DNA of 64,000 nucleotides from Rhizobiaceae bacterium. Lineage in GTDB: Bacteria > Pseudomonadota > Alphaproteobacteria > Rhizobiales > Rhizobiaceae. Of the stretch, positions 43,414 through 61,750 are shown in pieces. The DNA lies in assembly GCA_029212415.1 (NCBI GenBank), contig JARGOF010000001.1, forward strand, positions 62,001 through 126,000. The letters run 5' to 3'. Within the stretch, counting starts at the first letter, position 1; the number at the start of each line of letters is the position of its first letter. A program made the translations under genes and the position numbers. Below the pieces are notes generated by a model. The model did not search any database. It was given only the letters and a program-made list of their open reading frames with translations, and was not told where the DNA came from.

Positions 43414-43550
43414 GCGGCATGGTCTTCTTTACACGTTTGAAGCCAGTGCCTCTGCCAGGCGCAGAACAGGCAATGCGCACAAGGATGCAAGGGTGCTTTT
43501 CAGCCAATTGGATGGCACCTGACACAACGACCCTTTGCACCGGCGCAAAC

Positions 43551-43562
43551 CTGTATATACAG
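43551..43562. promoter_or_regulatory. Candidate GntR/HutC operator CTGTATATACAG
   Basis: Perfect palindrome sharing TGTATATACA with 40432-40443, next to TTGACA 43566-43571. Confidence 0.6.
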
Positions 43563-43636
43563 AGCTTGACAAGCAAAATAGCGACTGCCAGTTTGATCGG
43601 GGCATCGCGCTTTGTGCAGGAAGGACGGTCAGCTCG

Positions 43637-44731
43637 ATGAGCCGGATGGTTGAGGTAAAAGACGTTTCAAAGAGCTTTGACGGCACGCTTGCGGTCAATG
43701 CTGTGAACCTAGTTTTGAACCGCGGAGAATTCCTGACGATTGTTGGTCCAAGCGGCTGCGGCAAGACAACGCTGTTGCGCATGATCGCCGGTTTTGAAGT
43801 GCCCAGCGCCGGGGAAATCCGCATCAACAATGAGCGGGTTGAAAACATTCCTCCCTATCGGCGTTCCATCGGTATGGTGTTTCAGAAACTGGCGCTGTTT
43901 CCGCATATGACGGCGGCCCAGAATGTTGCCTATCCGTTAAAGATGCGCCGCTTTGAGCCGGCTCAGATCCCTTCGCTTGTCGATAAATATCTTCAACTGG
44001 TGCAACTGGGCGATTATGCAGGCCGCTATCCGCATGAACTTTCGGGTGGGCAACAGCAGCGTGTGGCCATCGCACGCGCCCTGTCCTTCAGTCCCGATCT
44101 GCTTTTGCTGGATGAGCCACTTTCAGCGCTGGACAAGAAATTGCGCGAAGAGATGCAACTGGAATTTCGGCGTATTCAGCAGGAACTGGGCGTGACCACC
44201 ATCAATGTCACCCATGACCAGCGCGAGGCGCTTGTGATGAGCGACAGGATCGCCGTGATGAATGAGGGTGTTGTGCAACAGGACGGAACACCCGTCGACA
44301 TGTACCGCAATCCTGAAAACCGCTTTGTCGCCAATTTCATCGGCATGACATCGCTGTTTGAGGGCACTGTTTGCGCAACCGGCGATGGCGTGGTCTCCGT
44401 CAAATCCGGCAATGTCCTGCTGCAGGCCCGTTCAAACGACAAGGTTCTGCCAGTCAATACGAAGGTGGATTGCGCCATTCGCGCCGAGCAGATCAGGATT
44501 GTTGAAGACGCCAGTGTGTACGACAATTCGGTTTTTGGCACCATCGAACATCGGATTTTTGAAGGAGATCGGATCGTTTATACCGTTCATGTCGAAGATC
44601 TGGGCGGCGCCCGTCTTCACCTGTTCGACCACGACCCCGTTTCACACAAGGAATACCCGGCCAATGAGCGGGTTAGACTGGGTTGGAATGCGCGGGATCT
44701 GTTTGCGTTTCAAGCCCCACAAAGCAACTGA
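43637..44731 (+). CDS. Spermidine/putrescine-type ABC transporter ATP-binding protein (PotA-like)
   Basis: GPSGCGKTTLLRMIAGFE, LSGGQQQRVAIARAL, C-terminal TOBE-like region. Confidence 0.93.
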   Translation: MSRMVEVKDVSKSFDGTLAVNAVNLVLNRGEFLTIVGPSGCGKTTLLRMIAGFEVPSAGEIRINNERVENIPPYRRSIGMVFQKLALFPHMTAAQNVAYPLKMRRFEPAQIPSLVDKYLQLVQLGDYAGRYPHELSGGQQQRVAIARALSFSPDLLLLDEPLSALDKKLREEMQLEFRRIQQELGVTTINVTHDQREALVMSDRIAVMNEGVVQQDGTPVDMYRNPENRFVANFIGMTSLFEGTVCATGDGVVSVKSGNVLLQARSNDKVLPVNTKVDCAIRAEQIRIVEDASVYDNSVFGTIEHRIFEGDRIVYTVHVEDLGGARLHLFDHDPVSHKEYPANERVRLGWNARDLFAFQAPQSN

Positions 44732-44756
44732 AGACCTCATCAACGGAGAACCAACC

Positions 44757-45848
44757 ATGTCAATGATTCTGGATACCAAAACCAATCGACGCACGGTGCT
44801 GAAAACCGGTGCAGCGGCCGTCGGGATGCTGGCCATGCCATCCGTCCTGCGGGCGCAGGAAAAGCCCAAGGAAATTATTGTTCGTGCCTGGGGTGGCGCC
44901 TGGGGTGACGCCCTGAAGGCCGGCGTGGCAGACCCGTTCACGGAAGCCACCGGCATCAAGGTCCGGCTGGATTTCACGGAAGACAATGAGATCAAGCCAA
45001 AGATCTGGGCTGCGGTTGATCAGGGCCGTGTTCCACCAATCCACGTCAACTGGGACACGACCACCAATGCCACCATTTCAGCCTTGCGCGGTGCAACGGT
45101 TGACCTGAGTGATCTGTCAAATCTGAAAGGCTTGCTGCCGCTGGCCAAGCCAAGCGGCCTGGAAGGCTATCCGCTCGTCAACACCTATGCCTATGTCTAT
45201 GTCTGCGCCTATCGACCGGAAGCCTTTCCGGACGGACCGCCGACATCCTGGAATGTTCTGATTGATCCGAAGTTCAAGGGCCGTATCGCCCTTTATGACG
45301 ATGGCATCGGTTTCAACCCGATCTCCGTCATCGTCGGTGGTGGAACCTTTGCCGATATTCCGGACAATATGGAGCCGGGCTACGAATTCTACCGCAAGCT
45401 GAAACAGAATGAGCCGCTGCTGGGTGAAGATGCTGATTTCACCACCTGGTTCCAGAAGGGTGAAATTGACGTTGCCTGCACGATTTCGGTGAATGCCCGC
45501 GCCGCCAAGGAAAGCGGCATTGATGTCGCATGGACTGTTCCCAAAGAGGGCTGCAAGGTCGATACGGACGGACTTTGGGTGCCAAAGGGTCTGCCGGCCA
45601 ATGAAGAGCACTGGGCAAAGGAATTTGTCAATTTTGCACTGACAAAGGATGCGCAGCAAAAATGGTGTTCGATGCTGGGCCTGCCGCCTGTCTATCCGGG
45701 TATCGAGCCACCGGCTGACCTCGTTGGTGATCCGTCCTATCCGACCACGCCGGAGGATTTCGCGAAACTGGTTTCGGTGCCTTCACCGGTTCTGGTTGAA
45801 AACCAGCCAATCTGGTTCGCCAAGTTCAACGAAATATTCCAGGGCTAA
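44757..45848 (+). CDS. PotD-like ABC substrate-binding protein (Tat signal)
   Basis: NRRTVLKTGAAAVGMLAMPSVLRAQ; extracellular binding protein fold motifs. Confidence 0.9.
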   Translation: MSMILDTKTNRRTVLKTGAAAVGMLAMPSVLRAQEKPKEIIVRAWGGAWGDALKAGVADPFTEATGIKVRLDFTEDNEIKPKIWAAVDQGRVPPIHVNWDTTTNATISALRGATVDLSDLSNLKGLLPLAKPSGLEGYPLVNTYAYVYVCAYRPEAFPDGPPTSWNVLIDPKFKGRIALYDDGIGFNPISVIVGGGTFADIPDNMEPGYEFYRKLKQNEPLLGEDADFTTWFQKGEIDVACTISVNARAAKESGIDVAWTVPKEGCKVDTDGLWVPKGLPANEEHWAKEFVNFALTKDAQQKWCSMLGLPPVYPGIEPPADLVGDPSYPTTPEDFAKLVSVPSPVLVENQPIWFAKFNEIFQG

Positions 45849-46020
45849 TCCCTCCTTGCACCAATGCCCTTCGGGTCTTTTCCCGGAGGGCAGAGCTTTG
45901 TGCCTGTGACCTGCCCAGGATGCAATTGCAGGCATCAGGGCAAGAATACCAGGTCCTGCCATGGGTTTCATGACCTGATGGCGTCAGACATTGTGATCGA
46001 CACGGAAACCACCGAGGCTC

Positions 46021-46968
46021 ATGCAGCGCAATCAAATCATCAGGACACGGCTGGGCTGGAAGCTGCTCGACGGCATTGAACGGCTCGTATCCGCACTGTG
46101 GCCGGCCCGCTTCAAGGGTTCGGTCGGCAGGGTGCTGTTGCTGCCGGCAGTGCTGCTCATCGGCATTCTGGTCATCGGCCTTGGCTATATGATCGAATAC
46201 AGTTTTCATGAGTTGGACCTTTCCACCTACCGCCTGAAAGATGAATACAGTCTCGTCAATTATGCCGTTATCGCAGACAGGCCGGTCTATATGCGCGTTC
46301 TCAACCGAACGCTGCTGGCCGCCCTCATTGTCAGCGTGACGACGGTTTTTCTGGCTTTCCCCTATGCCTACATGCTGGTGCGCACCCGTTCGGCGCTGAC
46401 GCGCAAATTTCTGCTGATTGCACTGTTTTTGCCATTCTTCATCGGCCAGGTGGTGCGGGCCTACGGCTGGCTGATCATCCTGGGCAAGCAGGGTCTGATC
46501 AATTCCCTGCTGGAAGGTCTTGGTCTTCCAGCGCTCAACCTGATCTACAATTATCCGTCGGTGATCTTCGGGCTGATCCAATATATGTTGCCTTTCGCAA
46601 TCCTGCTGATTGTCCCTGCCGTTGCGGCAATCAGTGAGGATGTCGAACTGGCGTCGGAAGGACTTGGTGCGAACTGGATATCCACATTCCGCCATATCGT
46701 GCTGCCGCTGGCGCGGCCTGGTCTGATCGGGGCATTTGTGGTGGTCTTCACACTGACACTGACAGATTTTGCCATGCCCGAAATCCTGGGTGGCGGCACC
46801 ACCGATTTCATTGCCAGCGCGATTTATGACAGCTTTTTCCAATTGTCCAATGCCGGGCTTGGCGCGGCACTATCGATGATCCTGGTGATGATCGGCAGCG
46901 TTATCGTTGCCGCCATTTTCTATCTGGCCGGCACCGGGACTTTGGGCGTGCGGGAGCAATCGCGATGA
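46021..46968 (+). CDS. ABC transporter permease (PotB-like)
   Basis: Multi-TM; EDVELASEGLGANWISTFRHIVLPLARPGL (EAA loop). Confidence 0.9.
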   Translation: MQRNQIIRTRLGWKLLDGIERLVSALWPARFKGSVGRVLLLPAVLLIGILVIGLGYMIEYSFHELDLSTYRLKDEYSLVNYAVIADRPVYMRVLNRTLLAALIVSVTTVFLAFPYAYMLVRTRSALTRKFLLIALFLPFFIGQVVRAYGWLIILGKQGLINSLLEGLGLPALNLIYNYPSVIFGLIQYMLPFAILLIVPAVAAISEDVELASEGLGANWISTFRHIVLPLARPGLIGAFVVVFTLTLTDFAMPEILGGGTTDFIASAIYDSFFQLSNAGLGAALSMILVMIGSVIVAAIFYLAGTGTLGVREQSR

Positions 46969-47765
46969 GAGGTGCGCGCTCCAAAAAAATCGTCCTGTGG
47001 TCCATCATCTGGTTCAACATCATCACGCTCAGCCTGCCAACCGTGATCGTCATCGGTGCATCCTTTACCGCCGGGGAAATCATCCAGTTTCCACCGGAGG
47101 GGTTTTCCCTGCGCTGGTATCAGAAACTGTGGCAGCTTGATGATTTTCAGCCGGCCCTGATGCGCACCTTCTATGTCTCGATCATCTGCACCTTGATCAG
47201 CATACCGGTCGGCACTCTGGCGGCCATTGCAACTGTGCGCTACCGGTTCCGATTCCAGAAATCCATACAGGTCTACCTGCTTTTGCCCTTTACCATTCCG
47301 TTGGTCGTGTCGGGCATATCGATGATGATTTTCTTTGGTGAAATTCGCATATTGGGAAGTCTCTGGCCGGTGGGCATGGCCCTTTGCATCATCAATCTGC
47401 CCTTCATGATCTGGTCGGTCAGCGCCTCGGTCAACGCGCTGGACCCGGAATTGGAGAATGCGGCCTATAATTGCGGCGCACCGCCGGTTCAGGCCTTTTT
47501 GACGGTGACACTGCCCGCCGTGATGCCGGGGGTGATTACCGGGTCAATGCTGATGTTCATTCTGGCGTTCAACGAGTTCCTTGTCAGCCTGTTCCTGACG
47601 GATTCAAGAACAGTGACGCTGCCGGTGCAAATCTACAATTCGATACGCAGCATCATCACACCCGATCTGGCTGCCGTTTCGGTGATTTACATCGTCATCG
47701 CGCTGATCGCGGTCTGGTTGCTCGACCGGCTTGTCGGCCTGGAAATATTCCTGCGTTCCAAATAA
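46965..47765 (+). CDS. ABC transporter permease (PotC-like)
   Basis: ELENAAYNCGAPPVQAFLTVTLPAVMPG (EAA loop). Confidence 0.9.
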   Translation: MRGARSKKIVLWSIIWFNIITLSLPTVIVIGASFTAGEIIQFPPEGFSLRWYQKLWQLDDFQPALMRTFYVSIICTLISIPVGTLAAIATVRYRFRFQKSIQVYLLLPFTIPLVVSGISMMIFFGEIRILGSLWPVGMALCIINLPFMIWSVSASVNALDPELENAAYNCGAPPVQAFLTVTLPAVMPGVITGSMLMFILAFNEFLVSLFLTDSRTVTLPVQIYNSIRSIITPDLAAVSVIYIVIALIAVWLLDRLVGLEIFLRSK

Positions 47766-47779
47766 TTCGGAGTTCACAC

Positions 47780-49120
47780 GTGACAAAAACCATATCCTAC
47801 CACGAGCTGTCGCAGATCAAGGCTGAAACGCGGGCTTCGCTTTTGCGGCGGGCAGAAAGCGACATCGAGCCCTTTATCGAGAAGGTCAAACCCATCATTC
47901 AGGCGGTCAGGGATGAGGGCGACGTGGCGCTTGCCCGTTTTGCCAATGCTTTTGACAATTCACCGGTGAGCGCCGATGCCATTGCAGCGACGCCGGCCGA
48001 TTTTGATGCGGCTTTTCAGGAGGTCGATCGCGAGATGATCGAGGTTCTTGAGTTTTGCAGTGACAATGTACGGCGGTTTCATCAGGCGCAGATGCCTGAA
48101 AGCATGTGGATGAAGGAAATGCATCCGGGTGTCTTTGCAGGTGAAAAGGTCGAGCCCATCGAATCCGTTGCCTGTTATGTGCCGCGCGGAAAAGGCTCGT
48201 TTCCCAGTGTGGTCATGATGACGGCGATCCCGGCTGTGGTCGCTGGCGTGCCGAAGCCGGTGATCATCACGCCGCCGGGGCCAAACGGAAAGATCGATGC
48301 GGCCACATTGGTCGCGGCGCGTCTGGCAGGGGTGGAGAATGTCTATAAATGCGGCGGTGCGCAGGGCGTTGCGGCTGTTGCCTATGGCACTGAGACAGTG
48401 CCTGTTTGCCGCAAGATCGTCGGGCCCGGCAGCCCCTGGGTTGTGGCCGCCAAACGGCTGCTTGCCGACCGGCTGGATCCGGGCACTCCGGCGGGGCCCA
48501 GCGAAGCGATCATTCTGGCCGATGAGACGGCCAATGGCCGCGTGGCAGCGCTTGACCTATTGATTGAATCTGAGCACGGGCCGGACAGTTCGGCCTATCT
48601 GGTAACCAATTCGAGGCAGGTCGCACAGGACGCCATTGCGGCGATACCGGGCTATTGGAAGGAAATGAGCGAACAGCGCGTGGACTTTTCGTCCACGGTT
48701 CTTTGCGGTCCGCGGGGTGGGGTCATTCTTGCCGAGGACATGGAGCAGGCGATTGCATTCGTCAATGATTATGCGCCTGAACACCTGCAGGTTCATGCCA
48801 GCAGCCCTCATGATTATCTGGGCATGCTGCGCAATGCGGGTGAAATACTGCTGGGTGAGCACACGCCCGTGTGCATTGGCAATTTTGCTTTGGGTCCCAA
48901 TGCGGTCCTGCCGACAAATGCGGCGGCAATGACGCGCTCGCCGCTTGGTGTGCACGATTATATCAAGCTTGTGTCCATCGGCTATGTCACCAGGAAGGGC
49001 TATGATCTGTTGGCGCCTTACGCCAACAAATTCGCCCGATATGAGGGATTTGACGCCCATGCCAATGCGGTCTCCGATATGCGCACCCGTGCATTTGAAG
49101 CCGGTGGGGACCGGTCCTGA
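47780..49120 (+). CDS. Histidinol dehydrogenase family protein (probably not His biosynthesis; HpsN-like possibility)
   Basis: YVPRGKGSFPSVVMMTAIPAVVAGVP, GPGSPWVVAAKRLL; GTG start. Confidence 0.88.
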   Translation: MTKTISYHELSQIKAETRASLLRRAESDIEPFIEKVKPIIQAVRDEGDVALARFANAFDNSPVSADAIAATPADFDAAFQEVDREMIEVLEFCSDNVRRFHQAQMPESMWMKEMHPGVFAGEKVEPIESVACYVPRGKGSFPSVVMMTAIPAVVAGVPKPVIITPPGPNGKIDAATLVAARLAGVENVYKCGGAQGVAAVAYGTETVPVCRKIVGPGSPWVVAAKRLLADRLDPGTPAGPSEAIILADETANGRVAALDLLIESEHGPDSSAYLVTNSRQVAQDAIAAIPGYWKEMSEQRVDFSSTVLCGPRGGVILAEDMEQAIAFVNDYAPEHLQVHASSPHDYLGMLRNAGEILLGEHTPVCIGNFALGPNAVLPTNAAAMTRSPLGVHDYIKLVSIGYVTRKGYDLLAPYANKFARYEGFDAHANAVSDMRTRAFEAGGDRS

Positions 49121-49172
49121 CACCAGCAGTAAAGCCTTTGGGTCTTGCGTGTTTTAAAGCAAAGGAAAGTAC

Positions 49173-50174
49173 ATGAGGGCTGCCTGTCTTTATGCCGCCG
49201 ATGATCTGAGGATCGAAGATGTGGCCGAGCCGGTGATCGTCAACGAGCGGGACGTTCTGTTGCGCGTTGAAATGGCGGGTATATGCGGGTCCGATCTGCA
49301 CAATTTTCACACCGGGCAATGGATATCACGCAGCCCATCCGTCCCGGGACATGAATTTGTCGCCACGGTGCTGAAGACTGGTGCAGGCGTTTCTGCTTTG
49401 AAAGTGGGAGACCGGGTCGTCGCCGACAGCCGCATGCCCTGTCTGACCTGCGAGAAATGCCGGTCGGGTCAGGGGTATTTGTGTAGCCAGATGGGCTTTG
49501 TCGGTGAGGTCAATGATGGCGGTTTCGCGCCTCTGACGGTCCAGGCCGAGCAGCAACTCATCCGTCTGCCGGATCAATCTGTCCCGTCCCACATTGCGGT
49601 CCTGGCAGAGCCTCTGGCCGTGGCGCTTCATGCGGTCAACCGGCTTGGCACTGCAGTGCCAAACGATGTGCTTGTCATGGGTGCCGGCACGATTGGTGCA
49701 CTGACGGCGATCCTGTTGCAGCATCGTGGTGTGCGCAACATTGCGCTGTTTGACACCAATCAGGAACGGCGGAAAATCTTTTGCAAGGCACTGGGGCTGG
49801 ATATGCCCGGTGCAGGCGAATTGCAGAACAATGCCTTCGATGCCTGTATCGATACGACCGGATCTGTCGGCGCTTTCGAAACGTCACTGTCCAGTGTCAA
49901 ACGGGGTGGCGATCTGGTTGTCGTTGGCCTTTACGGCAAGAACATCACCTTTGACATGAACAGGATTGTTGAAGGGGGCTTGCGCCTGTCTGGATGTGCC
50001 GCCTTTGACAATGAGCTTGAGGAAGCGGTCCTGCTGCTGGCCGAACTTGCACCGAAACTCGCGTGCCTGACCTGCCGGCAGATCAGTCTGGACGATGTTC
50101 CAGCCATGTATGGCGAATTGTCATCGGGCGCATCTGCAGTGCAAAAGGCACTGATCAGGCATGATGTGATCTGA
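49173..50174 (+). CDS. Zinc-dependent alcohol dehydrogenase family
   Basis: GICGSDLHNFHTG, PGHEFVATV, CLTCEKCRSGQGYLC. Confidence 0.92.
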   Translation: MRAACLYAADDLRIEDVAEPVIVNERDVLLRVEMAGICGSDLHNFHTGQWISRSPSVPGHEFVATVLKTGAGVSALKVGDRVVADSRMPCLTCEKCRSGQGYLCSQMGFVGEVNDGGFAPLTVQAEQQLIRLPDQSVPSHIAVLAEPLAVALHAVNRLGTAVPNDVLVMGAGTIGALTAILLQHRGVRNIALFDTNQERRKIFCKALGLDMPGAGELQNNAFDACIDTTGSVGAFETSLSSVKRGGDLVVVGLYGKNITFDMNRIVEGGLRLSGCAAFDNELEEAVLLLAELAPKLACLTCRQISLDDVPAMYGELSSGASAVQKALIRHDVI

Positions 50175-50279: not shown

Positions 50280-50297
50280 TATTATATTAGTATAATA
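50280..50297. promoter_or_regulatory. Candidate operator TATTATA-TTAG-TATAATA
   Basis: Perfect 7-bp inverted repeat upstream of the SDR operon; shares AGTATAATA with 56962-56970. Confidence 0.5.
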
Positions 50298-50322: not shown

Positions 50323-51102
50323 ATGCAGTGCGATTTGGAAGGCAAGGTCGCATTGGTTACCGGCGCGGCAGGTGCGATTGGCAGCGCGATTGCCGAGCGT
50401 CTGACGGACAATGGCGCTCGCGTCATCATCGCCGATATCAATCTTCAGGGGGCAATTCAGGTCGCCGATGGCCTTGCCGATGCGATTGCCCTGGCGGTGG
50501 ACATCAGTCAGCCGGATTCCGTCGAAAACTTGGTTTTACAGATCATGCGGGAGGCCGGAAGGCTGGATATTCTCGTCAATAATGCCGGCATCAACACCCA
50601 GGCGCATCGCGTCAATATAGACGCATTCCCACTGGATGAATGGAACCGGATTGTCCGTATCGACCTTGACGGCCTCTATCTGATGAGCCGGGCGGCGCTT
50701 GCGCCGATGCTGGCCAGCGGCAATGGTGGCAGGGTGATCAATATTGCATCCGTGGTTGGACTTGCTGCCATGCGTTTGCAAAGTCCCTTCGTTGCCGCCA
50801 AGGCGGGCATCATCCATCTGACGCGATCCATGGCACTGGAATTGGGATCGCAGGGCGTGCTGACCAATGCCATTGCGCCTGGTTCCGTCATGACGGATTT
50901 GACCCGAAAGCTATTTTACAGCGAGGACGGTAGTTTTTCCTCCCGCACAGAAGAATTCATGCAGCACATTCCGTTGAACCGGCCTGGAACTGCGCAAGAG
51001 ATTGCCGAAGCCGCGCTGTTTCTGGCGTCTCCGGGTGCGGGTTATGTGAACGGCCAGATTCTGGCCGTCGACGGCGGCTGGACCGCCGGATATATGATGT
51101 AG
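50323..51102 (+). CDS. Short-chain dehydrogenase/reductase with catalytic Tyr replaced by Phe (FVAAK)
   Basis: VTGAAGAIGSAIAERL, LVNNAGIN, NIAS...SPFVAAKAG, VDGGW. Confidence 0.9.
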   Translation: MQCDLEGKVALVTGAAGAIGSAIAERLTDNGARVIIADINLQGAIQVADGLADAIALAVDISQPDSVENLVLQIMREAGRLDILVNNAGINTQAHRVNIDAFPLDEWNRIVRIDLDGLYLMSRAALAPMLASGNGGRVINIASVVGLAAMRLQSPFVAAKAGIIHLTRSMALELGSQGVLTNAIAPGSVMTDLTRKLFYSEDGSFSSRTEEFMQHIPLNRPGTAQEIAEAALFLASPGAGYVNGQILAVDGGWTAGYMM

Positions 51103-51675
51103 GTGGCCATGAAGATTGATCTCAATGACAGGGCAGTGCTGTTTACCGGTGCGGACAACAGGGTCACGGCCAGCGCTAAACAAGCACTTGTTGCAAATGG
51201 TGCATCGGTGATTGATGACGCCGCGGTACCTGATCTGCTGATCGTTTCATTTCCGCTCGTTCCCTGTGCCGATATTCAGCTTGAACCATCGGTTGCAAAG
51301 GCGCGCTCTGTCGCACAGGCGATGGGCGCGGGCAGCAGGATGGTCTTTATCCTGTCGGCCATTGCCGCCATGCCGATGCGCCGCTACCCGGAATATTCAA
51401 CGCAAATGGCTGCAGCATTGGCAGCTATGCGGGTGCTTGCCATGGAGCATGGGCCAAAGGTGCTGGTGAACGCCCTGGGTGTCGGCCTGTTGGGCGAACC
51501 CGAAGAGGCGGGAGATGCGGCCATGTTGTCCCACGTTCCGCAGGGCCGGGCAGCGACCCAAGATGAGGTGATTGCGCCTTTGCTTTTCCTTTGCGATCCG
51601 CTCAATAGCTATACCACCGGGCAGATATTGTCGGTCGATGGTGGCTGGAGCGCCGGTTATGGGCGCAATTTCTAG
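51103..51675 (+). CDS. Truncated/degenerate SDR paralogue with catalytic Lys replaced by Met (YSTQM)
   Basis: 190 aa; degenerate Rossmann start TGADNRVTASAKQ, ILSAIAAMPMRRYPEYSTQMAAA, VDGGWSAGY. Confidence 0.85.
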   Translation: MAMKIDLNDRAVLFTGADNRVTASAKQALVANGASVIDDAAVPDLLIVSFPLVPCADIQLEPSVAKARSVAQAMGAGSRMVFILSAIAAMPMRRYPEYSTQMAAALAAMRVLAMEHGPKVLVNALGVGLLGEPEEAGDAAMLSHVPQGRAATQDEVIAPLLFLCDPLNSYTTGQILSVDGGWSAGYGRNF

Positions 51676-51729
51676 AACGGTTCGATTGAAGTGCGGTTTC
51701 AGGCTTCCGCGCAAAAGCCCTAGACATTA

Positions 51730-51742
51730 TGCTATTATAATA
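51730..51742. promoter_or_regulatory. Candidate operator TGCTATTATAATA
   Basis: Reverse complement of TATAATAGCA at 56964-56973; upstream of the E1 fusion gene. Confidence 0.45.
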
Positions 51743-51809
51743 ATAATGTAAGCCATGGCTCTATGAGATGGCGCGGGAACGCACGTATGGGCCATTGAGG
51801 GGGAGGAAT

Positions 51810-54239
51810 ATGGCTGTTTCCGCAAAGTCAGGCACATGGATGGAACGAGAGCGAAAAAACCTTCCTGATCGGGAGGTGCTGATCGGTCTGTTCGAACAGA
51901 TGGTGCTGCTGCGCCGGTTCGAGAGTGTCGCACAGGTTGCGACCCGCAAGGGTGAAACACCCGGATTTCTTCATCTTTATATTGGTCAGGAGGCAACCGG
52001 CGTCGGCGTCTGTGCACATTTGCGCACCACCGACTGGGTGACCTCCACGCATCGCGGCCATGGACATGCGCTGGCCAAGGGTTCCGAGCCGCGCCGCGTC
52101 ATGGCGGAGCTCTTCGGCAAGGCCGATGGTATCTGCGGCGGTCGGGGTGGCACCATGCACCTCTATGACAGGTCCGTGGGTCTCTTCGGCACCAATGGTA
52201 TTGTCGGGGCCGGCATCGGTCATGCCGTCGGCATTGGTCTGAGTGCGCGGTGCAGGGGGCGTGATGATATTGGTGTTGCCTTTTTTGGCGATGGAGCCAC
52301 GAACCATGGAGCGTTCCATGAAGGGCTCAATCTTGCCGCGGTGCTGAATGCGCCCACCGTGTTCGTTTGCGAGAACAACCTCTATGCAACGGCGACGCCG
52401 CTGAACACCGTGACACGGAACACGGATATTGCAAGCAAGGCGGCCTCTTATGGCATGCCGGGCATTGCCGTCGACGGCAATGACGTATTTGCCGTCTGGC
52501 TGGCCATGAAAGAGGCGAGCGAGAGGGCACGCACCGGCAAGGGGCCGACACTTCTGGAGTGCAAGACCTATCGTACGGTTGGGCACCATGAGGGCGACCC
52601 GGTTGTCGGCACTTACAGGACGCAGGAAGAGGTTGACGCCTGGGTGAAACGCGATCCGGTCGACCTGTTTCGCAAACGGCTGATTGAAGATTTCGGCGTT
52701 GCCGAGGCTGACGATCTTGCAAGGATCGAGGCGCGGATCGACGAAATTGTGCAGGACGCGCTGGAATTTGCCCGCAAAGCGCCAAAACCTGATCCGGCAA
52801 CCGTGCGGCGGCATGTTTTTGCGGATCCGATCAACCCTGTTGAAGCCACCAGGCCCCAGGCGTCCGGTGGGACCCGGGTTCAGGGCTGGCTTGAGGCTGT
52901 CCGGGACGGTATTGCCGAAGAGATGCGTGCCAATCCTCATATCATTTACCTGGGAGAAGGAACCGGCGAGCGCGGCGGCAGTTTTGCCCATACAAAAAAT
53001 CTCTGGGATGAATTTGGCGCGGAGCGGATGATCGATACGCCGATTTCCGAACAGGGATTCACAGCCGCTTCCGTGGGTGCGTCAGCAACCGGCACACGGG
53101 CTGTGGCGGATTTGATGTTTGCCGATTTTGCGTTTGAGACAGCCGGGCAGATATTCCTGCAGGCCGCCAAGCTGCGTTATATGAGCAATGGTGCAATGAA
53201 TGCCCCTATGGTGGTGCGTGCAGGGGCCGGTGCGCTGCGCAGTTCAGGACCGCACCACAGTGGCATCTACCACCCGATTTTCGCACAGATGCCGGGTCTT
53301 GTTGTCTGTGTGCCGGCGACGCCGGCAGACGCCAAAGGTCTGATGAAGACGGCGTTGCGCGCCAGCGATCCGGTGATCATGCTCGAACCCAAGGCGCTCT
53401 TTGCGTCAAAGGGCGAGGTGCCGAGCGATGAGCACTATGTTCCCTTCGGGTCTGCGCGCCTTGCCCGGGTGGGTGCGGACATTACCATCGTGGCCGCCGG
53501 GCAGATGGTCGGCGTGGCGTTGCAGGCGAGTGAAGCTCTGCTTGAGCGCGGCGTGGATGCCGAGGTGATTGATCTGCGGACGATCATGCCGCTGGATGTC
53601 GGAACCATTGTGGATAGCGTCAAAAAGACCCATCGGTTGCTGGTGGTGGATGAAGCCTGGGCGATGTGCGGCATCGGCGGGGAAATTGCCCAGACGATCA
53701 ATGAACTGGCCTTTGACGATCTGGATGCGCCGGTCGGGCGTTTGCACAGTGCGCCGACCTCGCATCCCTTTGCACCGGTTCTCGAGGAAGCGATGCTTGT
53801 GAGTGTACAGCAGGTTGTCGATGGCGCTGAGTCCGTCGTGGCCGGTATTGCGCCGGTTCCCGATCATTGGCATGCGCCGGGGATCACGGCGACACCCGCT
53901 GCCGCGAGGCCCATTGCCGAGGCGTCCCAAGCAGCTGCTGCCAAGCCGGGCCCTGCGTCTTCTGATGCGCCGAATGAACCCTCTGCACTTGACGAAAATG
54001 AGGAGGCGATCACCATGCCGCACGGTGACCTGACGGTCTCGGAGGGCACGTTGGTCAAATGGCTGCACGCTGTGGGCGACGCGGTCAGCGAAGGTGACCT
54101 GATCGCCGAGATCGAAACGGACAAGGCCATTGTGGAAATCGATGCGCCGGCCACCGGGACTCTGATCAGCATTGACCAGCCTGTTGGTGCCACCGTGCCG
54201 ATGGGTGGGCGGATCGGTGTCGTCCGAAAATCCAATTGA
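51810..54239 (+). CDS. Fused 2-oxoacid/acetoin-type dehydrogenase: E1 alpha + E1 beta + C-terminal lipoyl domain
   Basis: TPP motif GDGATNHGAFHEGLNLAAVLNAPTVFVCENN; E1 beta region (DTPISEQGFTAASVGASATG); Ala/Pro linker; lipoyl IAEIETDKAIVEIDAPATGTL; SD GGGAGGA. Confidence 0.92.
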   Translation: MAVSAKSGTWMERERKNLPDREVLIGLFEQMVLLRRFESVAQVATRKGETPGFLHLYIGQEATGVGVCAHLRTTDWVTSTHRGHGHALAKGSEPRRVMAELFGKADGICGGRGGTMHLYDRSVGLFGTNGIVGAGIGHAVGIGLSARCRGRDDIGVAFFGDGATNHGAFHEGLNLAAVLNAPTVFVCENNLYATATPLNTVTRNTDIASKAASYGMPGIAVDGNDVFAVWLAMKEASERARTGKGPTLLECKTYRTVGHHEGDPVVGTYRTQEEVDAWVKRDPVDLFRKRLIEDFGVAEADDLARIEARIDEIVQDALEFARKAPKPDPATVRRHVFADPINPVEATRPQASGGTRVQGWLEAVRDGIAEEMRANPHIIYLGEGTGERGGSFAHTKNLWDEFGAERMIDTPISEQGFTAASVGASATGTRAVADLMFADFAFETAGQIFLQAAKLRYMSNGAMNAPMVVRAGAGALRSSGPHHSGIYHPIFAQMPGLVVCVPATPADAKGLMKTALRASDPVIMLEPKALFASKGEVPSDEHYVPFGSARLARVGADITIVAAGQMVGVALQASEALLERGVDAEVIDLRTIMPLDVGTIVDSVKKTHRLLVVDEAWAMCGIGGEIAQTINELAFDDLDAPVGRLHSAPTSHPFAPVLEEAMLVSVQQVVDGAESVVAGIAPVPDHWHAPGITATPAAARPIAEASQAAAAKPGPASSDAPNEPSALDENEEAITMPHGDLTVSEGTLVKWLHAVGDAVSEGDLIAEIETDKAIVEIDAPATGTLISIDQPVGATVPMGGRIGVVRKSN

Positions 54240-54263: not shown

Positions 54264-55277
54264 ATGAAGATACTTTGCGCCAACTGGCAGGCCGATGATG
54301 AGGCCGCGCTCGAACGCGAAGCCTTTCCGGATGTGGAATTTATCCTTGCGCGCCCCGGTTCGCACAGTGCTGCACCACTGGATAGGGATATGTGCCGCAC
54401 GGTCGATGCCGTGATCAACTATTCACCGGCGTTCGATGTGGCGGCAGATCCATCCGAGTTCCCGAATGCAAAGATTGCTGTTCGTTCCGGTGTGGGCTTT
54501 GACAATATCAACGCACCGGGCTGGGCGGCGCGCAATATACCCGCCTGCAATGTCCCTGATTATGGCACGACAGAGGTTGCGGATCACGCCATCGCCCTGA
54601 TGCTTTCGTTAACCCGCGGCACCACATCCTATGCCAATGAACTGGCAGGCCAGGGGCAGGCGGGATGGCATTTTTCCAAAGCGCCGTTGATGCGCCGTCA
54701 CAAGGGGGCAACATTTGGTATCATCGGATTCGGACGTATCGGGCTTGCCGCTGCACGGCGCGCGGCAGCATTCGATATGCGTGTCGTGTTTTACGACCCC
54801 TATCTGTTGTCGGGTGTTGATCTTTCAACCGGCTTTGATCGGGTGCATTCACTGGCCGAACTGATGGCCATCAGCGATGTTGTCTCTGTGCATGCACCGC
54901 TGACCGATGAAACCCGTCACATGCTGGGGGCAGCGGAATTTGCAGCTGCCAAACCCGGCCTTATCCTCATCAATACGGCACGGGGGCCGATCATCGATCT
55001 GACTGCGCTCGAAGAGGCCATGCGCAAAGGTTCGGTGGCGGGGGCCGGGCTTGATGTGCTGCCGGTTGAGCCGAGCGATATGGACCATCCATTGATGGCG
55101 GCCTGGCGGCGCGAGGAAGCCTGGATCTGGGGTCGGCTGATCGTCACACCGCATGCGGCCTTCTACAGCCCGGCGGCGATGCGCGATCTCAGGCTGAAGT
55201 CTGTCGAAGTGGTGGTGGCCTATCTCAAAGAGGGCCGTCTGACCAATTGTATCAATGCCGATGGGTTGAAGCTGTGA
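54264..55277 (+). CDS. D-2-hydroxyacid dehydrogenase (CtBP-like)
   Basis: FGIIGFGRIGLAAARRAAAFDMRVVFYDPY; INTARGPIID; TPHAAFYS. Confidence 0.92.
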   Translation: MKILCANWQADDEAALEREAFPDVEFILARPGSHSAAPLDRDMCRTVDAVINYSPAFDVAADPSEFPNAKIAVRSGVGFDNINAPGWAARNIPACNVPDYGTTEVADHAIALMLSLTRGTTSYANELAGQGQAGWHFSKAPLMRRHKGATFGIIGFGRIGLAAARRAAAFDMRVVFYDPYLLSGVDLSTGFDRVHSLAELMAISDVVSVHAPLTDETRHMLGAAEFAAAKPGLILINTARGPIIDLTALEEAMRKGSVAGAGLDVLPVEPSDMDHPLMAAWRREEAWIWGRLIVTPHAAFYSPAAMRDLRLKSVEVVVAYLKEGRLTNCINADGLKL

Positions 55278-55975
55278 TGGATATGTCGGTGGCAAAGGCC
55301 GGGCGTGTGATTGCATCTCCCTATGCACGGCGCCTGGCCGGTGAACGCAGCATTGCGCTGGAGGCCTTGTCTGGCAGCGGACCGGCAGGGCGCATTGTCG
55401 CCGCTGATATCCTGTCATTTGTGGCGCAGCCGACCGGGAGCCCGATTGCAGCGCAAAATGTTGCACCCTGCGCCATCGCAGCCACCATCGGGCTGGAAAA
55501 CGTGTACGCACTGCTTTCGCACCTGTGCAAAGCGGGTGGGCCGTTCGAGTTGGTTGATCTGGCGTTGCGGGCGGCAGAATGTGCGCGGGCAGAGGTTTTT
55601 GCGGGCCGCGCGAATCTGCATGAAGGCGTGGCGCTTGAAGTGGGTCTTTCCAAGGCAAGGCGGCAGCGTGTATTTGCCAATGCGACAGGCATGTCGTTGA
55701 CGCAGCTTCATCAGAATCGTGTCGAAAATGGCGCGGGCGATGAGGCCGAGGAGCCGGCATTGCTCAGCCTGAGAATTGCCGAAGCGCAAAAGCTCCGGAT
55801 GGTCGCCATGCCCCTGCTGCAGGGGCGGGCAATGCGGCTTGCCATTGATTATGGCCGGGTGAATGCGGAGTGCACATTGTTCTTTGACGCAGTGCAGATC
55901 GAAGAGGAGGATGCCGTGGCATTCCTGGTGCATTTCACAGCCGGTATCGAAGCGCCCTTGCGTCTGCTCGTGTGA
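55277..55975 (+). CDS. E2-like protein: peripheral subunit-binding domain plus degenerate acyltransferase core, no lipoyl domain
   Basis: PSBD ASPYARRLAGERSIALEALSGSGPAGRIVAADI; C-terminal FDAVQIEEEDAVAFL in place of FDHRVIDGADAARFL. Confidence 0.8.
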   Translation: MDMSVAKAGRVIASPYARRLAGERSIALEALSGSGPAGRIVAADILSFVAQPTGSPIAAQNVAPCAIAATIGLENVYALLSHLCKAGGPFELVDLALRAAECARAEVFAGRANLHEGVALEVGLSKARRQRVFANATGMSLTQLHQNRVENGAGDEAEEPALLSLRIAEAQKLRMVAMPLLQGRAMRLAIDYGRVNAECTLFFDAVQIEEEDAVAFLVHFTAGIEAPLRLLV

Positions 55976-56133: not shown

Positions 56134-56904
56134 ATGATTGAAAAGACTTCCGATGTATATCTTCTGCCGCAGCGTCCGCTGCTGCGTGCCAATGGCCCTT
56201 TGTATCGACAACTTGCCGATGTCCTGCGCGATCCCATTGCATCCGGCAGCTATCCCGTCGGCAGTGAACTGCCAAAGGAAGCCGATATAGCCAACCGATT
56301 CAGCGTCAGTCTGATGACCGTGCGTCAGGCGTTGCGCGAACTGGAAGCCGATGGGCTGATCAAGAAACGCTCTGCAAAGCCCGCCCTTGTTGCTGCGCGC
56401 AATCCCTCGCTGAATCTGAGCTGGGACTTCAAGAATTTTGCCGATATTGCAGAATATACCCGCGATGCGGTTCTGGACATCAAATCCTATGAGAAGGAAA
56501 GCTCGCTGCTCATGGCACGCCATTTTGGCATGGGCAAGGATGAAAAGGGCTATTGCCTGCGCAGTGTGTTGACGGTTGGTGACCAGAAAAAGGCTCAGGT
56601 GACCACCTATTTTCCTCCGGACATCGGCGCGCAACTCAAGCGCAAGGATTTCACCGATGTGCTGATCTTTCGTTCCGTTCAGCAGCGTTTGAATGTACGC
56701 CTTGAAGTGGCGCATATGACGGTGCGCGCCGAGATTGCTGATGAAACGCTTGCCGCGGATCTGGAGATTGCGGAGGGCGCACCCATCCTGACGGTGGAAA
56801 TGCTCTATCAGTCCGCTGATCAGCGTCACATCGAATTGTCGATTGCCCGCCACCCGGCTGATCTGTTCAGTATTTCTTACGATGCACCCAACAATCTGGC
56901 CTGA
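56134..56904 (+). CDS. GntR family regulator (UTRA-type)
   Basis: LYRQLADVLRDPIASGSYPVGSELPKEADIANRFSVSLMTVRQALRELEADGLIKKR. Confidence 0.93.
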   Translation: MIEKTSDVYLLPQRPLLRANGPLYRQLADVLRDPIASGSYPVGSELPKEADIANRFSVSLMTVRQALRELEADGLIKKRSAKPALVAARNPSLNLSWDFKNFADIAEYTRDAVLDIKSYEKESSLLMARHFGMGKDEKGYCLRSVLTVGDQKKAQVTTYFPPDIGAQLKRKDFTDVLIFRSVQQRLNVRLEVAHMTVRAEIADETLAADLEIAEGAPILTVEMLYQSADQRHIELSIARHPADLFSISYDAPNNLA

Positions 56905-56954: not shown

Positions 56955-56970
56955 GTATAAAAGTATAATA
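56955..56970. promoter_or_regulatory. Candidate operator GTATAAAAGTATAATA
   Basis: Matches 50280 and 51730 sites; upstream of the SBP gene. Confidence 0.45.
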
Positions 56971-57138
56971 GCATCATAGCTACCCTGCTGGAGAGGAGAT
57001 CAACCGCGTTGGTGTCGGCAGTGGCCCTGTGGAAAATCACGTATCAAGACAGTGCCGCACGGTGACGACAACAAATATTTCGGCCGGCACTTCCATCAGG
57101 GAAAATGGGTGCACGGTCGGATGGAGGAGGAAAAGGTT

Positions 57139-58197
57139 ATGAAACTCAAAGCTCTTGTGCTCGCGGCTCTGGCCGCTACGACGCTGGCAGGCGTGGGTGG
57201 TCCTGCGCTTGCGAAAAGCGAGCCCTATGTCATCTATCTTTCGAATAATTTTGTCGGTAATGACTGGCGCCAGCAGATGGAACGTGTCGCCGAGATTTCG
57301 GTTGCAAAGGGTCCCTTGAAAGGCCGTGTCGATCTTCGGATCGAGAATGTTGAAAATGCGGTCCAGGCGCAAATCAATTCGCTGAACAATATCATGCGCC
57401 AGAAGCCTGACGCCATTTTGATCGATGCCGCCTCTGACACGGCTTTGAACCCGACCATCAAGAAAGCCTGTGACGCAGGTATTGTGGTAATCAGTTTTGA
57501 CCAGGTGGTGACGGCACCCTGTGCCTACGCGCTTGGATCCGACTGGGACATGATCCCGGCCGTCATGGCCGAATGGCTTGCCAAGGAAATCGACGGCAAG
57601 GGCAAGGTCATTGTTGATCGGGGCCTTGCCGGCGCACCCATCTCTGCGCAATTGCAGGGCGGCTATGAAAAGGTGCTGGCCAATTATCCGGATATTGAAG
57701 TTGTCGGCTATTATAACGGCGAATATGCGCTAGGGCCCGAGCAGTCGGGGGTAGCAGCCCTGTTGGCGGCCAATCCTCAGGTCGATGGCATTTTGACTCA
57801 GGGTTACGGGTCGGGTGCCATTCAGGCGCTGAAAGATGCCGGCCGTCCGATTGTTCCGGTCGTGGGGTTTTCCTATAATGTCGCAGCGCTGACCTGCGCG
57901 CAGACAGAAGGCGCGCGTTGCATATTGGGTTCCAATCCGGCCTATCTTTCATCCGAAGCGATCAAGCTTGCTGTTGAAATTCTCGACACCGGAAAGCGGC
58001 CGGAAGAGCGCTCGGTGGTGGTCAAAGGCGATTTCGTGACCACCCACCCGTTCAAATCCGAGCTCTATCCATCGGCAACGATGTTGAAAATAGCAGTGGG
58101 TGAAAATGCCTTCCCGGATCAGCCTCCTGGCCTGACCCTGCCGATCACGCCTGATTGGGTCGATATCACGGCAGCGGAAGCCGCCGGCTCGAACTGA
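57139..58197 (+). CDS. Sugar-type (CUT2) ABC substrate-binding protein
   Basis: SD GGAGGAGGAAAA; signal peptide; RbsB-like. Confidence 0.9.
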   Translation: MKLKALVLAALAATTLAGVGGPALAKSEPYVIYLSNNFVGNDWRQQMERVAEISVAKGPLKGRVDLRIENVENAVQAQINSLNNIMRQKPDAILIDAASDTALNPTIKKACDAGIVVISFDQVVTAPCAYALGSDWDMIPAVMAEWLAKEIDGKGKVIVDRGLAGAPISAQLQGGYEKVLANYPDIEVVGYYNGEYALGPEQSGVAALLAANPQVDGILTQGYGSGAIQALKDAGRPIVPVVGFSYNVAALTCAQTEGARCILGSNPAYLSSEAIKLAVEILDTGKRPEERSVVVKGDFVTTHPFKSELYPSATMLKIAVGENAFPDQPPGLTLPITPDWVDITAAEAAGSN

Positions 58198-58256
58198 TCC
58201 CCATCCAGTCAACTACCTCCCGGTGGAAAGCACCGGGAGGCCATTCGGGGCCTTTC

Positions 58257-59759
58257 ATGGATATTGTCCAGGTCAAGGGACTGACCAAGCGGTTTGGTGG
58301 CATTGTTGCCCTGGACGGCGCTGATTTCAGCGCGCGGCTTGGAGAGGTTCACGCACTGCTTGGCGAGAACGGTGCCGGCAAAAGCACATTCATTCAAATC
58401 CTGTCGGGGGCGCTCACGCATGATGGCGGTGACATTCTTGTCGACGGCCAGGACTATCGCCCTGTCAATCCTGATGAAGCCCTTGGGCGCGGCATTGCAG
58501 CGGTATTTCAGGAGCTCTCGCTTGTTCCCGATCTGAGCGTTGAGCAGAACATCTGGTTTCGAAGAGAACCGCGCACCTGGTTGCGCACTGTCGATGTCGC
58601 GCAAATGCGGCAGCAAACACTGGAGCTGTTTGAGCGGTATCATTTCCCTTCCATTGCGACGACCAGAGAGGTTCGCAATCTGACGCTTGCCGAACGGCAG
58701 ATCGTTGAAGTGGCAAAAGGCCTGGCAAAAGATCCGCGCATCCTTATTCTTGATGAGGCTACATCCGCATTGCCGGCGAGCGAGGCGACGTGGCTTTTGT
58801 CTCTTGCGCGGCAGCTTGCCGATGAGGGCAGGCTGGTCATTTTCATTTCGCACCGCATGGGTGAGGTCCGAGCGATTGCTGACCGGGTCAGCGTGTTTCG
58901 CAATGGTTCGACGGTTGCCACCCATGATGCCGCTGCAGTTTCCGACGACCAAATCGTCACCGAGATGATCGGACGACAGCTTGCACGTCTTTATCCGGAG
59001 CGTGTGGACACGGCAACGGATCGGGTGGCTTTGCAGGTGCGCGATTTTTCCAGCCCGCCAATGCTCAATGGTGTGAATTTTGATCTCCGTGAGGGCGAAG
59101 TGCTGGGTGTTGGCGGGCTGCAGGGACACGGCCAGCGTGAAATGTTTCAGTCGCTGTTTGGTGCAGACAAGGCTTTGGGCAGCATAACGCTGTGGGGCAA
59201 GCCGGTTCGCTTTGACACGCCGCGTCAGGCATTGAGCGGGTCCGAGGGGATTGCCCTGGTGCCGGAGGATCGGCGCGGTCAGGGATTGTTGCTGAGCAAG
59301 AGCGTTCGCGAAAATCTGGCCTTGCCTGTCATCCGGCGTTTCAGTCATTTTGGGCTTCTTGACCAGCGCAAGGAAACAGAGCTTGTCCGGGAGACCATGA
59401 AGTCCCTGAGTATCAAGGCGGATACGCCGGAACAGATCGCCGGAACCCTGTCCGGTGGCAACCAGCAAAAGGTCATCTTCGGCAAGATGCTGATGACCCA
59501 GGCGCGTGTGCTGCTGCTTTATGATCCGACCCGTGGCGTCGATGTCGGCACCAAGGGAGAGATTTTCCAATTGATGCGCCAGCTGGCGTCGGAGGGCTAT
59601 GCGATCCTATTTTATTCCAGCGACCTGCCCGAACTGGTCAATGTCGCGGACCGTGTGATGGTTTTGCGCAGTGGACGCGTTGCGCGGATGCTCGAAGGCG
59701 ATGACATCACCGAAGAGGAAATCCTGCGCGCGGCCGTATTCGACAGCGAGGCCGCCTAG
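58257..59759 (+). CDS. Sugar-type ABC transporter ATP-binding protein (tandem domains)
   Basis: GENGAGKSTFIQILSG; LSGGNQQKVIFGKML. Confidence 0.94.
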   Translation: MDIVQVKGLTKRFGGIVALDGADFSARLGEVHALLGENGAGKSTFIQILSGALTHDGGDILVDGQDYRPVNPDEALGRGIAAVFQELSLVPDLSVEQNIWFRREPRTWLRTVDVAQMRQQTLELFERYHFPSIATTREVRNLTLAERQIVEVAKGLAKDPRILILDEATSALPASEATWLLSLARQLADEGRLVIFISHRMGEVRAIADRVSVFRNGSTVATHDAAAVSDDQIVTEMIGRQLARLYPERVDTATDRVALQVRDFSSPPMLNGVNFDLREGEVLGVGGLQGHGQREMFQSLFGADKALGSITLWGKPVRFDTPRQALSGSEGIALVPEDRRGQGLLLSKSVRENLALPVIRRFSHFGLLDQRKETELVRETMKSLSIKADTPEQIAGTLSGGNQQKVIFGKMLMTQARVLLLYDPTRGVDVGTKGEIFQLMRQLASEGYAILFYSSDLPELVNVADRVMVLRSGRVARMLEGDDITEEEILRAAVFDSEAA

Positions 59760-59762
59760 ATC

Positions 59763-60758
59763 ATGGATTCGTCTTCCAAACAATTGCAGAGCCCACAGTC
59801 GATGAACATGCAATCGCGGTTGTTGGCGCATGCACCATTCCTGGTTGCCTGTTCCATGCTCGTTGTCATCGTGGCCATTTACGGCTCGCTGCAGACGGGC
59901 GTTTTCACCATTGACGAGATCAATCTGAACACGGCTGCGGCCATGACCCTGATGCTTGCGGCAACCGGTCAGACAATCGTGCTTTTGCGCGGTGGCATTG
60001 ACCTGTCCATCGGCGGGATGATCTCCCTGGGGACAGTCATTGCCGCAACCCGGTTTGGCGAAGAACCGGCAAATATCCTGCTCTGGTCGGCCATCATTCT
60101 GGCCATAGGTTTCGGAATTGGCGCTCTTACCGGCTTGCTGATTTCGGTTCTGCGGCTGCAGCCATTCCTGGTGACGCTGGCCGGCTGGTCCATTCTGAAC
60201 GGCATCGCGCTCATGATCCTGCCGACCGATGGCGGCAAAGTGCCCGAATGGTGGATCGGGTCGGGCTATCTGGAGTTTTTGGGCCTGGGCACACCGGTGT
60301 GGATCCTGTTGGCGCTGATCGTCTTCTGGTGCTGGTTTCGCGCCACGCGCCTGTGCACGATCATCAAGGCAACGGGTTCAAGCGAGAAGTCGGCGTTTCT
60401 CTCCGGCGTTTCCATCACCCGGATCAATATCATCACCTACGGATTGTCGGGATTCTTCGCAGCGCTCGCCTCGCTCTATCTGACCACGCAGATCGGCGGT
60501 GGTTCACCCAATATTGGCACCGACTACATATTGCCCTCGGTTGCTGCGGCGATTATCGGTGGTGTCAGCCTGTTCGGGGGACGTGGCCATCTGTTCGGCA
60601 CGATTGTCGGCGCCTACATCCTGACGTTGATCGGCAATCTGGTATTTGTTCTCAGGGTATCGAGTTACTGGCAGCCGGTCATGTCGGGCGTCATCTTGCT
60701 GCTGGCTGTTCTTGCCAGTTCCTATGCTGAACAAAAAGCACGGAAGCGAGGCTCATGA
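59763..60758 (+). CDS. Sugar-type ABC transporter permease
   Basis: RbsC-like; GQTIVLLRGGIDLSIGG. Confidence 0.92.
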   Translation: MDSSSKQLQSPQSMNMQSRLLAHAPFLVACSMLVVIVAIYGSLQTGVFTIDEINLNTAAAMTLMLAATGQTIVLLRGGIDLSIGGMISLGTVIAATRFGEEPANILLWSAIILAIGFGIGALTGLLISVLRLQPFLVTLAGWSILNGIALMILPTDGGKVPEWWIGSGYLEFLGLGTPVWILLALIVFWCWFRATRLCTIIKATGSSEKSAFLSGVSITRINIITYGLSGFFAALASLYLTTQIGGGSPNIGTDYILPSVAAAIIGGVSLFGGRGHLFGTIVGAYILTLIGNLVFVLRVSSYWQPVMSGVILLLAVLASSYAEQKARKRGS

Positions 60759-61750
60759 ACACCTTCCTGTCCCGCAACCGGCTTATCATTCTTGCCTATA
60801 TCGGCATGCTGTTGCTTGTTCTGATCACGGCTTTCTTCTCGCCCGGTTTCCTGTCTGCATCGAACTTGCGGTCCACATTCATCCTCGCCTCTTTTGTCGG
60901 CATTGTCGCGCTGGGGCAGACCTTTGTCATCATCGGCGGTGGCATTGATCTGTCCATACCCTGGGTGCTCAATTCGGCGGCGGTTCTGATGACTTTGCTG
61001 TGCGCCGGTCAGGACCTGCCTTTGATATGGGTGGTGCCTCTGCTTTTGGCCGGTGGTGGGCTGATCGGATTGCTGAACGGTGCCGGTGTGGCCTTGCTCG
61101 GTGTTCCGCCGATCATCATGACGCTGGCTGCCAACGTCATCTTGCAGGGCTTGATCCTGGTGTTTACCGGCGGCACGCCAACGCCGGCAGCACCCGACAT
61201 GATCAAGTTTCTCTCGGTCGGGCGCATCAGCGGTATCCCGGTGATTGCACTGATCTGGACAGCCTTGACCGTTCTTGCCTGGCTTTTGCTGTCGAAATCT
61301 GCCTTTGGCCGACACCTCTATGCGGTGGGCACCAATGTGACGGTTGCGCGTTATTCCGGCGTGCCTGCGACGCGCACCACAATCCTGACCTATGTCATTT
61401 CGGGCATGACGGCGGCGCTTGGTGGTATCCTGCTGACCGGCTATTCCGGTGTGGCCTATCTCGGCATGGGCGATTCCTATCTGTTCACAACGGTGGCCGC
61501 CGTGGCCATTGGTGGCGCGCCGATACTGGGAGGCAGCGGCCATTATATCGGAACCGTTGCAGGTGCCCTGGTCCTGACCATACTCACAGGGCTCCTGCCG
61601 GCGCTGAACCTTTCAAGTGGTGCGCTTCTGGTGGTCTATGGGGCGGTCATATTGCTGACGGTCTCGATTGGCAGCGAGACGTTTTCCGAAATGTGGGCCT
61701 CGGCTTCAAACCGCAGGAAACGGATAAAAGAGGGAACGGAAAATGGTTGA
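60755..61750 (+). CDS. Sugar-type ABC transporter permease
   Basis: RbsC-like; GQTFVIIGGGIDLSIPW. Confidence 0.92.
   Translation: MNTFLSRNRLIILAYIGMLLLVLITAFFSPGFLSASNLRSTFILASFVGIVALGQTFVIIGGGIDLSIPWVLNSAAVLMTLLCAGQDLPLIWVVPLLLAGGGLIGLLNGAGVALLGVPPIIMTLAANVILQGLILVFTGGTPTPAAPDMIKFLSVGRISGIPVIALIWTALTVLAWLLLSKSAFGRHLYAVGTNVTVARYSGVPATRTTILTYVISGMTAALGGILLTGYSGVAYLGMGDSYLFTTVAAVAIGGAPILGGSGHYIGTVAGALVLTILTGLLPALNLSSGALLVVYGAVILLTVSIGSETFSEMWASASNRRKRIKEGTENG

Follow-up and report, generated by a model that had tools for sequence, protein, structure and literature searches.

The tyrosine of the YxxxK motif is the textbook hallmark of classical short-chain dehydrogenases (SDRs). In a stretch of 64,000 nucleotides from a Rhizobiaceae bacterium (contig JARGOF010000001.1, hereafter the window), two adjacent SDR genes depart from this hallmark in different ways, the first (SDR A) having Phe in place of the Tyr and the second (SDR B) having no Lys. 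The question is what such a pair can do, and whether the two losses belong together. The original prediction, made from the letters of the DNA, was that the pair arose by tandem duplication and had divided the active-site residues between its members.

SDR A belongs to the classical SDR superfamily. It matches the Pfam profile adh_short_C2 with 196 bits (E 9.6e-58, cut-off 27) and adh_short with 166 bits (cut-off 26.6), and its AlphaFold2 model shows a complete SDR fold (pLDDT 85) with a TM-score of about 0.87 to solved classical SDRs. The predicted position (50323-51102), the intact TGxxxGxG, the change of Tyr to Phe and the retained Lys were all borne out. The cofactor motifs read TGAAGAIG and NNAG, and the tetrad is D114-S143-F156-K160, with twelve residues between Ser143 and Phe156. 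This D-S-F-K combination replaces N-S-Y-K in all 27 distinct tailless orthologues of A (the tail is described below); the conservation of Phe156 in orthologous pairs, which had been proposed as a check, is thereby complete. The exchange of Tyr for Phe is accompanied by one of Asn114 for Asp, which had gone unnoticed. A sequencing slip at the TTC codon could be ruled out, because another species of the genus has an identical A protein whose gene differs by 17 synonymous substitutions. The Phe is not a matter of chance either: in a set of about 145 unrelated SDRs taken from the loci retrieved, it has no genuine counterpart at this position. N-S-Y-K accounts for 128 of the set, and the few rows without Tyr comprise a pair of misaligned sequences, a single V/Q and two fragments. 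A profile search against solved structures returned FabG proteins as the best matches (225 bits, against 191 bits for BbsD) and no member of the family itself, and the literature searched held nothing specific on SDRs in which Phe replaces the Tyr or in which a tail is shared.

Table 1. Positions of the SDR pair and the associated features in the window.
Feature	Position	Strand	Basis and remarks
AT-rich palindrome TATTATATTAGTATAATA upstream of SDR A	50280..50297	.	5 matches vs 0.01 expected
SDR A, NAD-site-bearing subunit	50323..51102	+	259 aa, ATG start; Pfam, tetrad and tail table, AlphaFold2
Phe156 codon TTC, position of the catalytic Tyr	50788..50790	+	Same residue in 27/27 tailless orthologues
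SDR B, shortened pseudo-SDR without beta2-beta3	51109..51675	+	Pfam, orthologue starts, AlphaFold2, residue counts
beta7 and tail of SDR B, NSYTTGQILSVDGGWSAGYGRNF	51604..51672	+	Mean column identity; R-x-F in 26/26
Fused PDH-type E1 alpha, E1 beta and lipoyl domain	51768..54239	+	Pfam; constant neighbour by synteny
D-2-hydroxyacid dehydrogenase	54264..55277	+	Pfam; Ldh_2 family enzyme instead in some loci
Degenerate E2-like protein, E3-binding domain, no HRxVDG acyltransferase motif	55277..55975	+	Pfam, motif check
GntR/HutC-type regulator	56134..56904	+	Pfam; conserved next to SDR A by synteny
Sugar ABC transporter of the CUT2 type, with periplasmic binding protein (57139-58197), RbsA-like ATPase and a pair of permeases	57139..61747	+	Pfam (binding protein); synteny

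For SDR B the predicted open frame holds up to its end at 51675, whereas the start, which had been placed at GTG 51103, is more likely the ATG at 51109 (188 aa), as the orthologues share the N-terminus M-[KER]-[IV]-[DE]. Six bases then separate it from the stop of SDR A. The two genes lie in one reading frame with a single TAG (51100-51102) between them, and read-through would give an A-B fusion. SDR B matches adh_short_C2 in its C-terminal part only (60 bits, cut-off 27) and has neither TGxxxGxG nor a complete YxxxK. It aligns with SDR A at 33% identity over 127 aa (E 4e-16), with the Ser and the Ser-Tyr spacing in register, as had been seen before. Its AlphaFold2 model is a compact SDR (pLDDT 85; TM-score to the query up to 0.76 in the structure search) with equivalents of strands beta1, beta4, beta5, beta6 and beta7. 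Missing from the model are strands beta2 and beta3 and the helices that go with them, which together make up the adenosine half of the NAD site, in agreement with the degenerate and shortened N-terminal half that had been described. The model retains the alphaE/alphaF and alphaG/beta7 elements, which are the helices and the beta7 strand that form the two interfaces of SDR tetramers.

Among 26 homologues of SDR B the Lys of YxxxK is absent throughout, so its loss was correctly called, and the catalytic Ser is retained in 21. The Tyr position is occupied by F in nine, W in six, A in four, Y in three, Q in two, and H and E in one each. As Tyr occurs in just 3/26, the Tyr in the window's SDR B is to be regarded, on this alignment, as incidental and cannot be what SDR B contributes. 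The complementary split of Tyr and Lys does not hold, then, and the YSTQM motif, which was to be checked for conservation, is without its Tyr in most of these homologues.

What SDR B does conserve is its end. Column identity is 0.86 in beta7 and 0.84 in the tail, compared with 0.45-0.72 elsewhere, making this the most conserved stretch of the protein; the Arg (Arg186 in the window) and Phe of the tail are invariant (R-x-F in 26/26), with endings such as GYGRNF. SDR A has lost this tail. It stops at VDGGWTAGYMM, and in the pairs A ends in GYMM, GFMM, GYMI or GYML. The absence of an R-x-F tail from SDR A had been overlooked; it becomes visible by comparison with the single-gene relatives of A, which come from Planctomycetes, Chthonomonas, Opitutae, Rhodospirillales and other alphaproteobacteria. 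All 22 of these bear the tail (...VDGGWTAGYxR[DE]F), their final residues being G-[YF]-x-R-[DE]-F or deviating from it by one residue, and no separate B was seen in those of their genomes that were searched. Their tetrads are D-S-F-K in eleven cases (L075, for example) and D-S-Y-K in the other eleven (L160, for example). Orthologues of A with a normal Tyr, which had been named as what would refute the unusual active site, are thus lacking among the 27 true orthologues and present among these distant relatives. Within the tailless A proteins, 26 are accompanied by a B and one by a full-length tail-bearing paralogue. The R-[DEN]-F ending is absent from the sampled unrelated SDRs, and the two matches outside the scored family are B genes. 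Judged from these sequences, the complementary feature of the pair is the C-terminus, not Tyr and Lys. The position of the tail is not seen in the monomer models, where the last block of SDR B is disordered (pLDDT 31) and the tail ends of both proteins have low confidence, as would be expected of tails that become ordered only in a complex. It is worth mentioning a Rhodospirillales locus (L074) in which E1 is flanked by an SDR A of the tailless D-S-F-K kind and by a D-S-Y-K relative of full length that bears the tail (L074:1956-2840 and L074:6276-7079); it is possibly an intermediate stage of the pair.

The two genes also travel together. Across 398 genomes of the order, a search for B and a profile search for A picked out an identical set of 16, from three families; in one family, represented by 28 genomes and including Kaistia, B accompanies A in each of the 17 genomes that have A. 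Named relatives belong to Mesorhizobium, Devosia, Kaistia and Rhizobiaceae. A adjoins B, with 6-11 bases between them, in Rhizobiaceae, Mesorhizobium and Devosia; in the Kaistia-type loci divergent E1 and E2-like genes on the opposite strand separate A from B, and both are retained. At first sight the rule is broken twice, at L178/L198 and at L190/L197, but both genomes turned out to have a B, one copy being cut by a contig end. In the tree, B groups with the A family to the exclusion of other SDRs (support 87, or 93 without the tail columns), and A and B are thus paralogues of one SDR subfamily. The tailless A proteins form one clade and the B proteins another (support 100 each), so that the tail pattern may reflect one or two evolutionary events that are seen many times, and not 26 separate ones. 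With the tail columns removed, the AU test rejects by a narrow margin a topology that joins B to tailless A as its sister (p = 0.0499), and for that reason the pair probably does not stem from a recent duplication of A; grouping B with the D-S-Y-K alphaproteobacterial single genes is allowed (p 0.32), and the root of B is not resolved within the clade. Of the tandem duplication, the paralogy therefore stands and the recent origin from A does not. The dN/dS ratio is 0.15-0.28 for B in six species pairs and 0.00-0.13 for A. This purifying selection indicates that B is a working protein, and a B that is not real or not expressed, which would have undone the original prediction, looks unlikely.

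The genes that follow the pair (Table 1) give an idea of its metabolic setting. Degenerate copies of the palindrome upstream of SDR A precede E1 (at about 51725-51745) and the gene of the sugar-binding protein (at about 56955-56972). Similar palindromes lie 40-70 bp upstream of SDR A in most related loci. These AT-rich palindromes are probable operators of the GntR regulator. The HRxVDG motif is absent from all nine pair-type E2-like proteins examined and present in three Planctomycete E2 proteins (L072, L075 and L192); degenerate forms include that of the window (55277-55975) and those of L051, L052, L055, L057, L060, L062 and L063. By its motifs, the E2-like protein would be the second degenerate enzyme in the operon of the SDR pair. 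The 2-hydroxyacid step beside E1 is represented either by a D-2-hydroxyacid dehydrogenase (the window, L160-L164 and L197) or by an unrelated Ldh_2 enzyme (L061, L062, L063 and L191), an apparent non-orthologous replacement. An aldose epimerase or an HpcH aldolase is found near the pair in some loci. The recurrence of E1, 2-hydroxyacid dehydrogenase, E2-like protein, GntR regulator and CUT2 transporter points to a predicted sugar-acid route, in which a 2-hydroxyacid would be oxidised to a 2-oxoacid and then decarboxylated. Upstream, positions 43535-50174 hold genes for a spermidine/putrescine-type ABC transporter, a histidinol-dehydrogenase family enzyme and a Zn-dependent alcohol dehydrogenase. 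This set occurs with the SDR pair in the same genus only (L064 and L201), and on that ground it is probably a separate pathway; relatives of histidinol dehydrogenase such as HpsN act on sulfonates. Still further upstream lies another SDR frame (41995-42603, about 200 residues), which may be truncated in the window, since its counterpart in a sister species (G005) has 273 aa.

The exact co-occurrence of A and B, the reciprocal tails, the purifying selection on B, its lost strands and the company of the operon all support a heteromer. From them we infer a physical A-B complex, the insertion of the tail, a redox activity and a class of substrate. The reading to which we incline, with slightly more belief than doubt, is that A binds NAD and the substrate while the tail of B completes the pocket of A, within a sugar-acid operon. 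SDR A and SDR B would each be a subunit of the same heteromeric short-chain dehydrogenase, which would probably take the form of an A2B2 tetramer. In it, A would give the NAD site and the chemical centre with its altered Asp-Ser-Phe-Lys tetrad; B, with its own adenosine half and catalytic residues gone, would have retained the packing elements and the Gly-Tyr-x-Arg-x-Phe tail, which would cross into A, complete the substrate pocket and substitute for the tail that A has lost. In the ancestral homo-oligomer both parts, core and tail, would have been present in every subunit. Catalysis without the Tyr hydroxyl could rely on Lys160 and a water molecule, on Asp114, which is invariant in both the Y and the F versions, or on a group of the substrate or the tail. 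The heteromer would act in the sugar-acid pathway together with the 2-hydroxyacid dehydrogenase and the PDH-type E1. As half of the tail-bearing single-gene proteins also carry Phe, B is neither the source of a replacement Tyr nor what makes the Phe tolerable. The wider proposal is that an SDR subfamily present in several phyla catalyses without the Tyr, and that one lineage split a homomeric site into an NAD-binding subunit and a pseudo-subunit that kept the tail and had its NAD half deleted; this is put forward tentatively, as something that falls a little short of probable.

It is conceivable, though unlikely, that A and B do form a complex with the tail in the pocket and that it performs no ordinary alcohol/ketone redox chemistry, the NAD being structural, or cycled in a lyase, dehydratase or epimerase reaction, or the complex serving to bind a ligand. 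FabG mutants of the Tyr to Phe type are reportedly nearly inactive, and the fixation of Phe in A would fit such a role. The engineered FabG Y151F has a solved structure (1q7c), and the Mx3K 4,6-dehydratases run NAD-cycling reactions as Tyr-less SDRs. However, Ser and Lys are invariant, and the Y and F members share their operon type (E1, 2-hydroxyacid dehydrogenase, GntR), which suggests one reaction for both. We find it quite unlikely that B is an independent scaffold, regulator or ligand-binding protein, for example on the E1/E2-like complex, that merely coevolves with A in the pathway. E1 is as constant a neighbour of B as A is in Kaistiaceae-type loci, and the degeneracy of the E2-like protein means that an unusual complex exists there; but the presence of A and B matches exactly, while several B loci have no E1 in the stretch seen or have it some 7 kb away (L049 and L067-L069), an independent B would leave the reciprocal loss of the tail unexplained, and B retains the SDR packing elements. 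That an active site is rebuilt from the Tyr of B and the Lys of A, as the residues of the window's two proteins would allow, is very improbable, given how few B proteins have the Tyr and that the pocket of B is without its NAD half; the Tyr of B would lie within B's own fold, far from the nicotinamide of A. Barely credible is the view of B as a decaying pseudogene of the duplication beside an ordinary dehydrogenase with a tolerated substitution, for although no catalytic motif is left in B and some 70 residues are gone, the dN/dS values of B speak against decay, and full-length frames of similar size occur in 26 distinct homologues from several families with an invariant tail.

The pair is more interesting than the original prediction had it, through the division between NAD/catalytic core and tail and through the fixed loss of the Tyr. 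With Phe fixed, with Ser, Lys and the NAD site invariant, and with Y as well as F versions occurring naturally in one type of operon, SDR function without the Tyr becomes directly testable. If A and B form the proposed heteromer, they would be a clear case of a homomer turned into an obligate heteromer, with both end states, the single gene and the divided pair, surviving in living genomes. In practice, annotation will probably list the two genes of such a pair as independent oxidoreductases, and an assay with A by itself would not succeed.

The closest known system is the heterotetrameric SDR BbsCD, whose active subunit BbsD reportedly retains a normal Tyr. The likeness to BbsCD (PDB 7pcs) lies in two paralogous SDR genes, one of them for a pseudoenzyme subunit, within a catabolic operon. 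As a precedent it had been well chosen, being of the right kind, with paired paralogous SDRs of which one has no NAD site; the intact catalytic Tyr in the partner is not shared, A having Phe156. In the window the presumed active A has this Phe, its partner B is considerably shorter, and of the two subunits B alone has the C-terminal tail; by the profile scores given above, A shows no special closeness in sequence to BbsD. Pseudoenzyme subunits have been described for the SDR BbsCD (doi 10.1111/febs.16216, cited in PMC10818641). For the proposed completion by a tail, the human cis-prenyltransferase DHDDS/NgBR offers a parallel in an unrelated fold and chemistry: the inactive paralogue NgBR extends a conserved C-terminal R-x-G tail across the interface, where it completes the catalytic site of DHDDS, and the homodimeric relatives carry both parts (PMC7573591). 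In the 2,3-butanediol dehydrogenase SmBdh of Serratia marcescens (6xew/6vsp), an SDR tetramer, the C-terminal Gln247 of the opposite subunit lines the pocket, and the Q247A mutant loses about 90% of the activity (PMC7656694). Structure 6vsp comes close to A in fold (TM 0.88), but SmBdh is a homotetramer with its Tyr intact. Natural SDR enzymes that work without the catalytic Tyr are known in the Mx3K UDP-GlcNAc 4,6-dehydratases WbpM and PglF, which are active with Met in its place (PMC8987622), although these are extended SDRs that act on nucleotide sugars, have Met rather than Phe and have no pseudo-subunit. In both sequence and fold, the closest solved relatives of A are classical SDRs of the FabG and gluconate 5-dehydrogenase type, which differ from it in being N-S-Y-K homotetramers with no R-x-F tail.
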